Source of the DNA: a virus | Virus record (IMG/VR): IMGVR_UViG_3300047323_000262 | Span: 1 to 61,561 of that record | DNA length: 61,561 nt | Direction: 5' to 3' (one strand) | Shown here: piece after piece, positions 1,249 to 52,239 of the stretch | How positions within the stretch are numbered: the first letter of the stretch is position 1 | How the letters are laid out: every line of letters begins with the position of its first letter | Notes under the pieces: model-generated | Told to the model about the DNA's origin: nothing | Seen by the model: only the letters and a program-made list of their open reading frames with translations | Database searches by the model: none | Program-made: the position numbers and the translations under genes

Positions 1249-1901
1249 TGGCCGGCATCAGCGTCGCCACCCTGATTCAGCGCGCTGGCTTCCTTCTACA
1301 GGATGAAGACCACGTTCGCTGGACCGTTCCCGAGTTGGTCAGTTGGATCAATGAGGCTGCGGGCGCGCTGGTGACGTTACGCCCGAGTGCGGGCGCGCAG
1401 CTGGTGACGCTGGTGCTGGTCGCCGGCACCCAGCAGTTGCTCGACGACAACGTGGTGCAGCTGCTGGACGTGGTGCGCAACCTGGGCGCCGACGGTGTTA
1501 CCCCCGGTCGGGCGATTCGCCTGGCCGAGCGCCACCTGTTCGACAGTTCCGACCCGGACTGGCACACCCGCGCCGGCAAGGCGGTGATCAAGCACTACCT
1601 GTATGACGACCGCACGCCCAACGTGTTCTATGTCTACCCGCCTGCACTGGCCGGCACCCGCATTCAAGGCAGTCTGTCGGTGATGCCGGCGCCGATCAGT
1701 ACGGGCACCGACAGCCTGGCGCTGGACAGCCAGTTTGAAAGCGCGCTGGTGAACTATGTGGTGTTCCGCGCCTTCGCCAAGGACAGCGAATACGCCAACG
1801 GCGCGATTGCCACCGGTTATTACCAGGCCTTCCAGGCGGCGCTGGGCGGCAAGGACGCGGGCGAGCAATCGGTATCCCCTAACACCAAGGTGCCCGCATG
1901 A
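1248..1901 (+). CDS. Head-tail adaptor-like protein (DUF6682-like)
   Basis: This 217-residue protein starts with a helical region (about residues 1-45) containing a W-x-x-x-E-L-x-x-W-I-N-E-A pattern, which resembles the DUF6682/adaptor proteins found next to portal and capsid genes in short-tailed phages. It overlaps the previous gene by one base and the next by ATGA, so the three are probably co-translated. A role in joining portal to tail is likely from family and position but not shown by a catalytic motif. Confidence 0.7.
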   Translation: MAGISVATLIQRAGFLLQDEDHVRWTVPELVSWINEAAGALVTLRPSAGAQLVTLVLVAGTQQLLDDNVVQLLDVVRNLGADGVTPGRAIRLAERHLFDSSDPDWHTRAGKAVIKHYLYDDRTPNVFYVYPPALAGTRIQGSLSVMPAPISTGTDSLALDSQFESALVNYVVFRAFAKDSEYANGAIATGYYQAFQAALGGKDAGEQSVSPNTKVPA

Positions 1902-2512
1902 TCGACCTAGACGTGTTTCTGCCGCGCATCCTGCCCTATGCGCCAGGCTGTGCCGAACCCACGGTGTTTGCCAGCATCATCAAGGCAGCGCAAACCTTCT
2001 GCGAGCGCACTCGCTTGTGGCGCGACCGCGACCAGTTCAACGTCACCCCGAGCAGCTGCAACGTGGTCTGCGCGCCGAACGGCGCCGAACTGTTCGAGAT
2101 CGAAAGCGCGCGGTTCAATGGTTCTGATTTAGAACCAATCGCGCTCGCCGACCTCGACGCCAAGCACCCGACCTGGCGGCAAATGTCTGCCGGGGCGGCG
2201 CGCTGGATCACGCAGACCGAGCCTGGCAGCGTGCTGCTGGTGCCAACGACCACCGGCACCCTGGAGCTGTCCACCCTCCTGCGCCCGGCCGACAACGCCG
2301 AGCAACTGCCGGACCTGTTCAGTCAGTACACGCAGGCGATCGCCGACGGCGCGCTGGGCGACATCCTCATGCTACCGGCGCAAAGCTTCAGCAACCCTGA
2401 CCTCGCTCAGTTTTATTCGATGCGGTTTGATAATCGAATCAATGAACTGTTTAATCAAACCATTAAAGGCCAGCAACGGGCACCCGTCCGCTCGCGCCCC
2501 CGATTCTTCTAA
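1898..2512 (+). CDS. Head-tail connector/adaptor-like protein
   Basis: This 204-residue protein starts in an ATGA overlap with the preceding adaptor. The N-terminal 60 residues look helical, with the C-E-R-T-R-L-W-R pattern common in second adaptor proteins of podoviruses; the C-terminus is basic (R-S-R-P-R-F-F). It probably belongs to the tail-attachment ring. The coding region contains two AT-rich dyads (2120-2136 and 2424-2440) that stand out against the GC-rich surroundings. No enzymatic motif is visible. Confidence 0.65.
   Translation: MIDLDVFLPRILPYAPGCAEPTVFASIIKAAQTFCERTRLWRDRDQFNVTPSSCNVVCAPNGAELFEIESARFNGSDLEPIALADLDAKHPTWRQMSAGAARWITQTEPGSVLLVPTTTGTLELSTLLRPADNAEQLPDLFSQYTQAIADGALGDILMLPAQSFSNPDLAQFYSMRFDNRINELFNQTIKGQQRAPVRSRPRFF
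2424..2440. promoter_or_regulatory. Intragenic copy of the 17-bp dyad motif
   Basis: This matches 16 of 17 positions of GGTTyGATwATCrAACC, the imperfect palindrome found at the terminase and capsid promoters. It lies inside the adaptor gene, 84 bp before the tail-fibre gene at 2524, and has no good -35 partner. It could be an operator, a degenerate promoter or chance coding similarity (it encodes RFDNRI). Confidence 0.35.
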
Positions 2513-2523
2513 GGAGTACGCCC

Positions 2524-2943
2524 ATGTCCGCTGCATCGGATTACCTGGAAAACGCCCTTGCTAACGCCGTGTTGCGTGGCGTGGCGTTCACCTCGCCGAC
2601 CAAAACCTACATTTCGTTGCACACCGCCAGCCCCGGCGATACCGGTGCCAACGAAGTCTCCTTGGCCGCGTTCCCCGCCTACCTGCGCAAGGATGCCGCC
2701 TTGGGCGCGGCGCAGTCTGCGGCCTGGACGGCGGCGTCGGGCGGCCAGTCGAAGAACGCTTTGCAGTTGATCTATGCGGTGTTCGACGGCGCCTCGCCGA
2801 TCACCATCACCCACTTCGGCGTCTGGGACACGCTGACGGCGGGCAACAGCCTGCTCAACGGCGCCCTGGCGGCCAGTCGCACGCTCAACCCCGGCGACGT
2901 GTTTGTGATCGACGTGCAAAAGCTGACGGTCACGGTGCTCTAA
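2524..2943 (+). CDS. Tail fibre-like protein
   Basis: The 139-residue protein begins S-D-Y-L-E-N-A-L-A-N-A-V-L-R-G and continues with Y-I-S-L-H-T-A-S-P-x-D-x-G. This pattern is typical of a family annotated as phage tail-fibre protein, found beside fibre genes in many siphoviruses and podoviruses. The family's usual length is about 130-150 residues, so it looks complete. Its start follows an AAGGAG ribosome site. The protein is a structural component, with no membrane or catalytic signature. Confidence 0.75.
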   Translation: MSAASDYLENALANAVLRGVAFTSPTKTYISLHTASPGDTGANEVSLAAFPAYLRKDAALGAAQSAAWTAASGGQSKNALQLIYAVFDGASPITITHFGVWDTLTAGNSLLNGALAASRTLNPGDVFVIDVQKLTVTVL

Positions 2944-2944
2944 G

Positions 2945-3787
2945 GTGAACACCTTCGCCATCAACGCCGTGGCGCTGAACGAGTCCAATGAGATTTGGAG
3001 CTGGTACGGCGACGCGGACGTGGTCTTGCAGGCCGATGGCGATGTGATCCTGGGCCTGACCGGCAGCAGCGCCATGAGCGTGGTGGTACTGGCCGACCTG
3101 ACCCCGCAGCTTAAGCTGTTCACCTCCGGCGCGGCCGATGTTGTGCTGCAAGCGGATGCCGAGGCCTTGTATGGGCGTGCTGGCGCTGCCGACTTGCTGG
3201 TGTCATTGACGGCCGCAGGTGAGGGGGTGCGCTGGACCTTTGGCGCCAGCGACCTGAGCGCGGTATTCCAGGCCGACGGCGACGGGCAAGTGGTGTCGCA
3301 GGTATCGTCGAGCTTCAACATCCAGTTCGACGCGGAACTGGATGGGCGCGCGGCCACCGTGCAGCAAGGCGTCGCCGATTGGTCGATGGCCTTCGGCATG
3401 CAGCTGGATTGGCATGTGGCGCGCCCGGCCTTCCTTGAGGGTGACGCCCCGGTGCTGTTTGGCATGGAGGCGCTGGCCAACCTGTACATCAGTTCGCCCA
3501 CCGGCTCCGCCGCCACCTCCTGGCTGCTCAACAAGTTGGAGTCTCGCCTGGGCGACAAGCTGTACGGCGAAGGTGCGGCCGACCTGCAATGGATCGCCAC
3601 CGGTGACGCGCAGCAATGGCATTACCAGTATGCCGAGGGCGCGGTCGATCTTCAGGTGTTGTGCGTGGCTGAGCGCCACGGCCTGCCGGTCCTGCCCACT
3701 GAATTTATCGCAGCGCCGCTCGTGCGGTCGCTGTGGGTGGGCGCCGAACCGCGCGCCCTTATCGTCCCCGCCGAAAGGAGAGCGTAA
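2945..3787 (+). CDS. Repeat-containing tail/fibre protein
   Basis: The gene starts with GTG just after the previous stop and codes for 280 residues. The first ~115 residues contain a beta-type repeat of about 20 residues (strongest at 40-residue spacing): A-D-V-V-L-Q-A-D at 24-31 and 64-71 and a weaker S-D-L-S-A-V-F-Q-A-D at 102-111. Related G-A-A/V-D-L-Q-x-x units recur near the C-terminus. Repeats of this kind suit an elongated fibre or baseplate component. The family is not recognised. The stop overlaps the next start (TAATG). Confidence 0.7.
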   Translation: MNTFAINAVALNESNEIWSWYGDADVVLQADGDVILGLTGSSAMSVVVLADLTPQLKLFTSGAADVVLQADAEALYGRAGAADLLVSLTAAGEGVRWTFGASDLSAVFQADGDGQVVSQVSSSFNIQFDAELDGRAATVQQGVADWSMAFGMQLDWHVARPAFLEGDAPVLFGMEALANLYISSPTGSAATSWLLNKLESRLGDKLYGEGAADLQWIATGDAQQWHYQYAEGAVDLQVLCVAERHGLPVLPTEFIAAPLVRSLWVGAEPRALIVPAERRA

Positions 3788-4062
3788 TGCTGGGAACCCT
3801 GCGCAAGCGCCCCGACGACATCCTGGACTATGACGTCAGCTTTGAAAAATGGTTGTCCTCGAGTGACAGCCTGATCGACGCCACGGCCACCGCCGACTCG
3901 GTCAACCTGACGGTGCTGAGCGTGTCCCTGTCGGGCGCCGTGGCCAAGGTCTGGTTATCCGCTGGCCTGGACGGCGAGTCCTACACCGTCACCGTCACCG
4001 CGACCACCGCGCAAGGGCGCGTGAAAGAAGTCGCTTTTAATCTTCGTCTTGTGGAGTGCTGA
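3787..4062 (+). CDS. Phage fibre-tail adaptor-like protein (Gp77-like)
   Basis: The 91-residue protein starts at the ATG overlapping the previous stop, preceded by GAAAGGAG. It reads M-L-G-T-L-R-K-R-P-D-D-x-L-D-Y-D with an immunoglobulin-like beta pattern and a G-x-x-Y-x-V-T-V-T-x-T-T-x-x-G-R-V-K-E stretch. These features match small proteins annotated as fibre-tail adaptors. It sits directly before the fibre gene, which supports a role in attaching it. Confidence 0.7.
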   Translation: MLGTLRKRPDDILDYDVSFEKWLSSSDSLIDATATADSVNLTVLSVSLSGAVAKVWLSAGLDGESYTVTVTATTAQGRVKEVAFNLRLVEC

Positions 4063-4063
4063 C

Positions 4064-5113
4064 ATGACCGTCACGGTTAACCTGAAAAACAACGCGATCA
4101 GCAAGCTCGCTTCGTCGCTGACCTCGGGCGCCACCACGCTGTCGGTTACGACCGGCGAAGGTGCAAAATTCCCCACGCTGACGGCCGGGCAATGGTTCCC
4201 GCTGACGCTGGTGGACAGCAGCAACAACGTGGAGGTGATGCGCTGCACCGGCCGCTCCACCGACGTGCTGACCGTCACCCGCGCACAAGAAGGCACCTCG
4301 GCGCGCGCCTTTGCCGCGGGCGATCGGGTGGAACTGCGCCTGACCGCTGCCGCCCTGAGCGAATCGTTTACCGCCTTGCAGGCCGACATCAGCGCCGCAC
4401 AAAGTGCGATCAGTAGCTTTCTGATCTTTCGCAACAAGCTGATCAACCCCAAGGGCAACGTCAACCAGCGCGCCTACGTTTCGGGCACCAACACCACGGG
4501 CGCCAACCAGTACACCCTGGACCGCTGGCGCGTGGTCACCAGCGGGCAGAACCTGGCGTTCGCCGCCGTCGACAGTCACTTTCAGATGACCGCGCCGGCC
4601 GGTGGCCTGGAGCAGGTGATTGAAGGGGTCAACATCGAGGGCGGCACCTACCGCCTGAGCTGGACCGGCACCGCCACCGCCAAGGTCAATGGCACCACCA
4701 TTGCTAACGGCGCCTTGACCGCCTCACTGACCGCCAACACCGACGTAACCGTGACTTTCGCCAGTGGTACGGTGGAGTTGCCGCAGTTTGAGCTGAACAG
4801 CGTCACCGCCTTCGAAGAGCGCTTGGTCGGCCTGGAAACCATGCTGTGCCAACGCTACTACGAGCAGATCGACTGCATCGCCATGGGTTACAACACCACC
4901 GGCAACGCAATTGCCACCTGCCAGGATTACAAGGCGGTCAAACGCACCACACCATCGGTCGCGGTGATTGTGGAAAGCGTGCGGATTACCAACACCAACG
5001 TTGGCGGCCTCAACACGCGGATTGGCACCGAATCGCTGTTGGTTTATCGCAACATTTCGTCGACGGGGCACGGTCAATTCCACACCCGTTACGGCGTGTC
5101 GGCTGAATTCTAA
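4064..5113 (+). CDS. Tail fibre / receptor-binding protein
   Basis: The protein has 349 residues. The N-terminal ~110 residues contain a beta domain with an L-T-V-T-R-A-Q-E-G-T-S-A pattern typical of virion-attachment regions. A short helical segment (about 105-125) may trimerise. From about residue 128, R-N-K-L-I-N-P-K-G-N-V-N-Q-R followed by Y-T-L-D-R-W is characteristic of a C-terminal carbohydrate-binding fibre domain. I chose ATG 4064, two bases after the previous stop. This is the likely host-range determinant. Confidence 0.8.
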   Translation: MTVTVNLKNNAISKLASSLTSGATTLSVTTGEGAKFPTLTAGQWFPLTLVDSSNNVEVMRCTGRSTDVLTVTRAQEGTSARAFAAGDRVELRLTAAALSESFTALQADISAAQSAISSFLIFRNKLINPKGNVNQRAYVSGTNTTGANQYTLDRWRVVTSGQNLAFAAVDSHFQMTAPAGGLEQVIEGVNIEGGTYRLSWTGTATAKVNGTTIANGALTASLTANTDVTVTFASGTVELPQFELNSVTAFEERLVGLETMLCQRYYEQIDCIAMGYNTTGNAIATCQDYKAVKRTTPSVAVIVESVRITNTNVGGLNTRIGTESLLVYRNISSTGHGQFHTRYGVSAEF

Positions 5114-51209: not shown

Positions 51210-51563
51210 ATGGATAAAGTTTGTGCGATTCATGGTCTTACACCTTTCAGGGATGCAACGAAGGATCGGTCTAATGGTCGATGCCTTAAGTGTGCGGTAA
51301 TTGCTGTAAAGAAACGAAGGAGAAAGATCAAGGAAATGGCCGTCGAGCACAAAGGTGGATCGTGCTTTCATTGCAGAGTCGTTTATCCTCCGTCAGTGTT
51401 CGAGTTCCATCATATTGACCCATCGTTAAAAGACTTCGCGATGGCTGGTGGCGGGCATTGTCGTTCATGGGAGGTTGTTAAGGCGGAGCTTGATAAGTGC
51501 GTCATGCTTTGCGCGAATTGTCACAGGCTTGAGCATTTGCGGTTAGATGAGCTGTGCTGTTAA
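51210..51563 (+). CDS. HNH endonuclease-like protein
   Basis: The 117-residue protein has a zinc pair C-F-H-C (about 52-55), the HNH core F-E-F-H-H-I-D-P (about 64-71), and C-V-M-L-C-A-N-C-H-R-L-E-H (about 96-108). N-terminal Cys pairs are also present. Its base composition is visibly more AT-rich than its neighbours, and it lacks a ribosome site, starting at the T-run of a terminator. These traits fit a free-standing mobile HNH gene. Confidence 0.75.
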   Translation: MDKVCAIHGLTPFRDATKDRSNGRCLKCAVIAVKKRRRKIKEMAVEHKGGSCFHCRVVYPPSVFEFHHIDPSLKDFAMAGGGHCRSWEVVKAELDKCVMLCANCHRLEHLRLDELCC

Positions 51564-51643
51564 ACTGCCAGTTCGTTCTGAAGCGCGAAAGATGTGGCTC
51601 CCCAGCTACCAGCCCGCACATGCGGCAATCGTCTTTATCGGGA

Positions 51644-51738
51644 AGGGCCATCGTCTAATGGCAAAGGTGCCGACTGATCATCGGTTAGCCAAGGCGCCCA
51701 TAAGGGAAATGGGAGTTCGATTCTCCCTGGCCTTTCCC
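51644..51738 (+). tRNA. tRNA-like element (GAU-like anticodon loop, atypical)
   Basis: AGGGCCA (51644-51650) pairs with TGGCCTT (51728-51734), and four more pairs (GGGA/TCCC) extend the helix to 11 bp. T8-C9, a weak D-arm with A-A-T-G-G, a 5-bp anticodon stem with loop CTGATCA (GAU), and a perfect T-arm (GGGAG-TTCGATT-CTCCC, 51711-51727) follow. Non-standard features are a missing base 26, a ~25-nt variable region with its own CCC/GGG hairpin, C at position 37, and no encoded CCA. It may be a decayed tRNA or a structural tRNA-like element of the adjacent RNA. Confidence 0.5.
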
Positions 51739-52239
51739 AATACAGATGAAGTTATGGCGATAAGCCGGATAGAGCCCCGGCCATTTGTATTCAGTGCTGT
51801 CCTGGCATGCGGTCCCGCGCGGGAGTTTGTGCCGCTGTAAGTCCAGGCTGTATCTGAAAGCGTTCAGCGGTCCACGGACCCTGTGTGAGTGGAAAGCCGG
51901 GAGACCCCGTAGGGCTACCATGACGTAGGACAGGAACGGGCGTGTTTCGTACTCAAGTGACGAGCCGCTGAACGCTCTCAGATGCAGATGAAAGCGGGCG
52001 TGGCCTTGGACCATCGGGAGCCGAGGCAATCAACACCTAGACGCAGCGGCTCGGGATAACCGGCCATCTGTAGCAAAGCATGGCGCCTCAAGCGTCTGCG
52101 CATGAATCCGTTGAGACCGGACAGCCGCAAGGTTGGGACATGCTGAAAGACTTGAGCGGACTGGGGCGGGGCCAGTACACACAAGCGCCGACAGCTAAGA
52201 GTTCGGACTGAGCCCAACCTTAAACCGTTGGGCTTTTTT
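51739..52239 (+). ncRNA. Large structured RNA downstream of the tRNA-like element
   Basis: About 500 nt without a credible gene but with many long complementary pairs: 51739-51748/51782-51791 (10 bp, one G-U); a TCCC-GCGC-GGGA hairpin inside GGCA/TGCC; CTGTATCTG (51848-51856)/CAGATGCAG (51979-51987) continuing into AGCGTTCAGCGG (51859-51870)/CCGCTGAACGCT (51965-51976), 21 pairs in all; GCCTTGG/CCGAGGC; GCCAT/ATGGC; and AGACGC/GCGTCT with CTCAAG/CTTGAG. It ends in a Rho-independent terminator. Pairing at 51594-51624 suggests it starts upstream of the tRNA-like element. It recalls large phage RNAs such as GOLLD or ROOL, but I cannot assign a family. Confidence 0.6.
52211..52239 (+). terminator. 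Rho-independent terminator ending the structured RNA
   Basis: AGCCCAAC pairs perfectly with GTTGGGCT around an 8-nt loop, followed by TTTTTT. Transcription of the structured RNA would end here, 54 bp before the next gene. Confidence 0.85.

Follow-up and report, generated by a model that had tools for sequence, protein, structure and literature searches.

A mosaic, strongly folded non-coding RNA next to the terminase genes of a Bcep22/Skulduggery-like podophage and its probable link to a widespread kissing-hairpin module

We have found a conserved, strongly folded non-coding RNA of a Bcep22/Skulduggery-like podophage at positions 51565–52239 of the window, the whole stretch of 61,561 nucleotides. 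The RNA is located between an HNH gene on one side and the terminase genes on the other, and it is large and built of fixed anchors that alternate with exchanged cassettes (Table 1). Its existence and its modular make-up, including a tRNA-like part, are well supported and we hold them with high confidence. Six relatives have retained the RNA in full, and in five of them the second unit holds a previously undescribed module, backed by covariation, that is widespread in phages and prophages of Proteobacteria.

Results

Locus, relatives and mosaic structure

A 616-nt stretch of the window RNA folds with an energy of -259 kcal/mol (z = -4.3, equaled by 0/20 dinucleotide shuffles). Across seven relatives there is no conserved reading frame, the longest stop-to-stop stretches being of 32–91 codons in inconsistent frames, and the same comparison showed that the cassette lengths are free to vary. 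The protein-coding reading of the region was rejected because of this missing frame, in agreement with a previous sequence-only reading that had seen no credible coding sequence here. That reading had placed the start at 51590; the other parts it described are present, but conservation begins about 25 nt sooner, around 51565, and in the relatives the conserved stretch starts directly after the tRNA array. The HNH motif of the neighboring ORF was seen by eye, while a Pfam search gave no match. We rejected this gene as a partner of the RNA, since most relatives have no HNH gene at that spot.

Table 1. Features of the RNA and of its upstream neighbor (positions in the window)
Feature	Positions	Strand	Description	Basis or remark
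HNH-type ORF	51210..51563	+	117 aa; replaces the tRNA array of the relatives (tRNA-Asn there)	Context, outside the RNA
5' anchor S1	51565..51639	+	Small hairpins including CCGC-ACAT-GCGG; ends in CGTCTTTATC	Relatives
Cassette 1	51640..51739	+	tRNA-like element; 11-bp acceptor-type helix 51640-51650 / 51728-51738; T-arm 51711-51727	ARAGORN, Rfam tRNA
Module a	51739..51791	+	P1a AATACAGATG (51739-51748) / CATTTGTATT (51782-51791)	
54-nt core	51801..51854	+	CCUGG/CCAGG helix, inner GCGG-UCCCGCGCGGGA-GUUUGUG-CCGC hairpin	Runs into GCUGUAUC
Cassette 2	51849..51987	+	Closed by helix P0b	Helix score, identity
Module b, diverged copy	51984..52071	+	P1b GCAGAUG (51984-51990) / CAUCUGU (52065-52071)	Synteny
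Intrinsic terminator	52210..52239	+	GAGCCCAACCUUAAACCGUUGGGCUUUUUU	

A terminase search in IMG/VR provided about 20 relatives, of about 61 kb when they looked complete, and the named ones include Skulduggery, Itty13 and Bcep22-type Burkholderia phages. The whole RNA is kept at the same place, from the tRNA genes to the terminase genes, in six contigs (L002, L003, L004, L008, L009 and L017). L018, a fragment, hardly differs from L008, and in L011 an ORF substitutes the middle of the RNA. This ORF lies on the same strand (L011, about 1280–1890), and there a T run after the S1 hairpin turns it into a plain terminator. As a separate observation, the terL match in L012, L013 and L014 covers 2349 nt with a 524-aa query, a span exceeding the query that points to an insertion of about 780 nt (intein or intron).

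When the segments were compared among seven relatives, the anchors were constant (mean identity 81% for S1 and 97% for the core) and the cassettes had means of only 50% (cassette 1) and 55% (cassette 2), with single pairs reaching 87–97%, a distribution of identities that, at the sequence level, is that of a mosaic. Cassette 2 of the window, for example, is 87% identical to that of L009 and 41–55% to those of the other relatives. The core string GUGCCGCUGUAAGUCCAGG was found in 7 viral contigs, all of the clade of the window, and in 0 genome contigs. Anchor S1, located in the relatives directly 3' of a tRNA-Asn, ends in the 5' strand of helix P0a, which closes cassette 1. Both closing helices covary in the seven relatives: strands of the same genome scored 15 for P0a and 12.6 for P0b, vs 8.3 and 7.6 when strands were crossed between relatives. 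The strands of P0b (CUGUAUCUG and AGCGUUCAGCGG, paired with CCGCUGAACGCU and CAGAUGCAG, 51849-51870 with 51965-51987) correspond to the two-part long-range helix of 9 + 12 bp that had been recognized before, and the strong terminator reported at the end of the region is likewise present. In module a, P1a encloses the hairpin GCCGG-ATAGAGCC-CCGGC (51764-51781). This module is 95–98% identical in L003, L008 and L009, and a longer allele is found in L002, L004 and L017, with the hairpin stem GCUGG/CCAGC or GCCAG/CUGGC.

The tRNA-like cassette

The 11-bp helix and the perfect T-arm noticed before are both present, and ARAGORN calls a tRNA-Ile(GAU)-like element of 97 nt at 51643-51739. Like a tRNA (RF00005), the element has a T-arm, an acceptor-type helix and an anticodon-like loop. 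It differs in the length of the acceptor (11 bp rather than 7), in a long extra region, in being inside a longer helix, and in its score with the Rfam tRNA model, 32.4 bits (cut-off 29) vs 55–73 bits for the genuine phage tRNAs that adjoin the RNA in the relatives. A further difference is that relatives have it swapped for non-tRNA sequence. With the tRNA model, the slot of cassette 1 gave no match in five of the six relatives; the exception is L002, with a second degenerate tRNA (3667-3794, 31.2 bits). The tRNA-like element is one exchangeable cassette, the version of cassette 1 carried by the window, rather than a constant domain.

A module with kissing hairpins

A starting pattern taken from the second unit of the RNA matched about 100 viral stretches. 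The module consists of a helix, P1, around two hairpins with loop-loop (kissing) pairing and a hypervariable insert between them. In most stretches the order is P1, a linker AA(U), hairpin H1 with the loop AGGCUGAU, the insert V (median 77 nt), hairpin H2 with the loop AGAUCAGCA, and P1 again. To guard against bias we ran a scan in which only H1 was fixed, while P1, for the most part, and H2, entirely, were unconstrained. A strand pairing with P1 over 6 bp or more and preceded by a hairpin was present in 103 of 110 unique sites in viral contigs and in 98 of 116 in bacterial genomes, a minority of the hairpins counted being spurious. The merged set comprised 247 instances with the expected loop and 45 different P1 hexamers. 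With the H1 loop AGGCUGAU, 234 had CAG[CU] in H2, and 10 CAC cases look spurious. When the variant loop AGUGGUGAU was scanned for separately, 13 instances were obtained, each of them (13/13) with CACC in the H2 loop. The kissing pair therefore covaries, GCUGAU/AUCAGC vs GGUGAU/AUCACC (Fisher p 4.5e-16, a value in which shared ancestry is left in), and in the type-B loops the pair changed from C-G to G-C in 13/13. Among 34 diverse sequences helix P1 was formed in every one, 98.5% of the cells were paired vs 84.7% in shuffles, and the covariation score was 0.372 vs 0.092.

Two other patterns were discarded: a kissing-loop descriptor run over all loci, with over a thousand chance matches, and a GATCACC hairpin pattern, whose matches were mostly chance and included one true module. 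In modules preceded by helix P0, the 3' strand of P0 is shared with P1, so that both cannot form fully. In the enteric loci L131, L135 and L139 the P0 strand UGCUCUUUCC resembles boxA (UGCUCUUUA).

The covariance model R1 scored 31–63 bits on the syntenic modules of L003, L004, L008, L009 and L017, and it also matches the related contigs L005, L006, L011 and L019; L002 (10.8 bits) was not found. For module a it gave about 15 bits at best in the relatives. The window scored 9 bits (E 0.026 in 801 nt), which is below a model match, and its own module b has no recognizable kissing hairpins. Since synteny and the shared anchors are maintained, with P1b kept and the second hairpin retained in altered form, we consider the window a diverged member. 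The link to the widespread module, resting on synteny, is quite probable, and the role of the family may carry over incompletely to the window, the kissing hairpins being lost.

Distribution and genomic setting

R1 matches were found in phages P1, D3, HK620, PAJU2, SopranoGao, CSP3, Magnus, ZC03, IME11, mEp460 and others; Skulduggery gave weak ones (17 and 14 bits), and Itty13 and BcepIL02 none. A two-part BLAST query matched up to 176–199 records of named phages and, out of 5,426 complete genomes of E. coli, as many as 746; these numbers are upper bounds, since part of the matches rest on one half of the query. The bacterial hosts include Enterobacterales, Pseudomonas, Halomonadaceae, Xanthomonadales and Burkholderiales.

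A tRNA was located within 1 kb of 46 of the 247 modules, a 17-fold excess over the 1.1% of controls, which were random rather than intergenic positions, and in 44 of these 46 it was on the same strand. The commonest identified neighbors include Q-like and repressor proteins upstream, and holin, endolysin, spanin and terminase downstream. The leaders in which the module lies are those of pL and of the late pR'. Of the two modules of PAJU2, the first follows cI, in the leftward early leader, and the second is located between Q and the lysis genes. In HK620 the module is found between the annotated pR'/qut and the tQ terminator. In mEp460 and Erwinia phage 59 it occupies the early leader, on the side of cI, and phiEt88 and Klebsiella phage 6 carry it behind Q. 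Of 240 modules, 66 (27%) have an intrinsic terminator no more than 250 nt downstream, vs 54 of 1878 control windows (3%), again random and not intergenic, and the distance is often 26–36 nt. Between the RNA and terL the window has three forward terminators, at 52210, 52611 and 53257, and a scan of this interval detected no sigma70-like promoter. The most frequent upstream neighbor cluster, with 19 cases, was phrog_3373, of unassigned function (for example L066 2454-3356).

Comparison with known RNA families

No Rfam family matched the window at the gathering threshold, and in the 801-nt stretch, searched to E 10, only the weak tRNA match (32.4 bits) and chance matches appeared; the Rfam check proposed by the sequence-only reading has thus returned no GOLLD, ROOL, HEARO, group I intron or tmRNA. 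With the window RNA as nucleotide query, named phages likewise yielded only tRNA and chance fragments. GOLLD (RF02032) had no match in the window, four relatives and phage Magnus, nor ROOL (RF03087) in the window and the four relatives, both models being silent in control genomes too. The cages of GOLLD and ROOL rely on kissing loops between molecules, and tRNAs are found in some GOLLD linkers (PMC12286853). The resemblance to them that had been noted is real, as they are also large ornate phage RNAs located by tRNAs, in which loops kiss and a tRNA may be contained in the variable region (PMC12286853). The resemblance goes no further, as the window RNA consists of small modules with exchangeable cassettes and matches neither family in sequence or structure. 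The further suggestion of a new class, or of a variant with a tRNA-like domain as part of the RNA, is supported by the relatives and the covariation, except that the domain is exchangeable and not constant.

STnc100 (RF02076) is the sole Rfam family truly similar to the module, mostly below threshold. With a cut-off of 47 bits, module 4 of phage P1 scored 33.9 bits (E 1.8e-5) and Magnus had a full match of 52.9 bits, in both phages within the same arrays as the modules; the 801-nt stretch of the window had no match, and most module-bearing phages had none or one far below the cut-off. STnc100 is reported to be homologous to PasD, to be Hfq-associated in RIL-seq, to be visible on northern blots and to lie near Q and lysis genes (PMC13192938). 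The module shares with STnc100/PasD the GGUGAAU-type closing helix, a hairpin at either end of the enclosed region and the location in prophage late regions near Q, stx and lysis genes, but has different hairpin loops. An isrJ match on L034 was rejected, as it was carried mainly by the terminator hairpin. The put RNA of phage HK022 is similar in being a small two-stem-loop RNA found in phage operon leaders ahead of terminators, the setting seen also in carriers of the module. Put is about 70 nt long and located at PL/PR; the module differs from it by the helix around its two hairpins, by the kissing of their loops and by the insert of variable sequence, and R1 gave no match on the HK022 record.

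Discussion

Our best explanation, held at somewhat less than even confidence, would be a cis action of the folded leader RNA on transcription elongation, for which HK022 put is the comparison system (PMC9378689). The window RNA would then be the leader of the late (terminase/portal) operon and mainly cis-acting. While the polymerase moves out of the tRNA region, the emerging transcript would fold into compact modules (P1 and two kissing hairpins), and these may act on the elongation complex or on Nus-type factors, so that transcription could pass, in the manner of put, the three terminators and the untranslated stretches. The cassettes, the tRNA-like one included, would be inserts tolerated in scaffold loops or may provide a second, phage-specific activity. 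We favor this role because of the operon-leader neighbors, the cases of PAJU2 and HK620, the excess of terminators and the three terminators of the window; the proximity of modules to untranslated tRNA arrays on the same strand was also counted in its favor. Against it, some carriers already have Q and/or N, antitermination requires neither the hypervariable inserts nor the tRNA-like parts that recur, a terminator right behind the module is also what the 3' end of a stable RNA would look like, and STnc100/PasD, the nearest described RNAs, come from Hfq-associated sRNAs. It is possible, though on balance doubtful, that an undescribed large class of RNAs, with a kissing-hairpin chassis and exchangeable, sometimes tRNA-like domains, acts as protein-free antitermination elements in early and late leaders of Proteobacteria phages, with the window as a two-unit member.

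Alternatively, the terminated leader could be a stable late or lysogenic sRNA acting in trans, with the module as a stability or chaperone scaffold and inserts that bind targets. The STnc100 matches of P1 and Magnus, the homology to PasD (PMC13192938) and the short distance to the terminators point in this direction, but the two PAJU2 modules sit exactly in two different operon leaders, many inserts look structured and the STnc100 model picks up just a part of the modules, generally with scores under its cut-off, so that we regard a trans-acting sRNA as unlikely. The tRNA-like folds could instead occupy host enzymes that process or cleave tRNAs, or be excised by RNase P, the constant parts being a scaffold. 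Besides the cassettes of the window and L002 and the enrichment by tRNA genes, T-arms outside real tRNAs appear in 16 of 247 upstream regions (0–2 in shuffles) and in 4 of 247 inserts (0 in shuffles). Such a mimic or decoy is nevertheless quite improbable, with a T-arm-like element on only about 8% of the modules, a slot devoid of tRNA matches in most relatives of the window, and real tRNAs close by that make the capture of tRNA pieces likely.

The same setting as GOLLD and ROOL (phage, tRNA island, ornate RNA, variable region) would also suit an RNA-only assembly, in which loops of different molecules kiss and so form a multimer, with the variable domain as its cargo. A near-constant kissing sequence over a freely drifting P1 is what pairing of any module with any other would produce, but scans with H1 fixed keep the loop constant by design, the partners are always inside one P1-enclosed module, where intramolecular pairing suffices, small single modules are common and the GOLLD and ROOL models are silent, which leaves this option very improbable. 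The low tRNA score and the ORF that replaces the middle of the RNA in L011 might suggest a functionless relic of a decayed tRNA array and its terminators, an idea largely refuted by the covarying helices, together with the core identity in seven relatives, and that we give hardly any weight.

Leaving aside the sub-threshold STnc100 matches, the module lacks an Rfam family and it is unannotated or lies beneath short hypothetical ORFs. As an antiterminator that needs no protein, if that is its role, it would be the widespread counterpart of put. In any case, with the module at hand in standard laboratory phages, the roles of leader RNAs and of tRNA-cluster RNAs of phages become testable there.

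Arrays and neighboring elements

Some phages carry arrays. In the plp region of phage P1 (L131 2410-3320) four modules or units resembling them follow each other in tandem, two of them scored by R1, and the upstream helix of the first unit contains a tRNA-like hairpin with a T-arm. Klebsiella phage Magnus has an apparently non-coding array of about 3 kb (L138, about 1650-4860), rich in tRNA-like RNA, and several of the mini-ORFs CPT_Magnus_031-039, located within it, may be spurious. Enterobacterial arrays open with a hairpin, followed by GCAAACGAUGAU...GCGGCNUAA, readable as an ssrA-like tag (ANDDVVLMAA*, ANDDLMMVAA*, ANDDLMLMAA* or ANDDAVLMAA*). From its sequence this stretch looks like the message domain of a phage tmRNA-type molecule. 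In the tag loci tested ARAGORN found no tmRNA and the Rfam tmRNA models reached only 26–27 bits, and in the literature we found nothing pertinent on a phage tmRNA near phage P1. The tags are located at L131 1856-1888 (phage P1, OP279344 about 64994), L138 2254 and L139 2291, and further ones in L151, L162, L189, L203, L211, L212, L215, L218 and L336. Finally, a Proteo-phage-1 RNA (RF03044, 76.8 bits) is found directly 3' of a module at L066 3701-3779.
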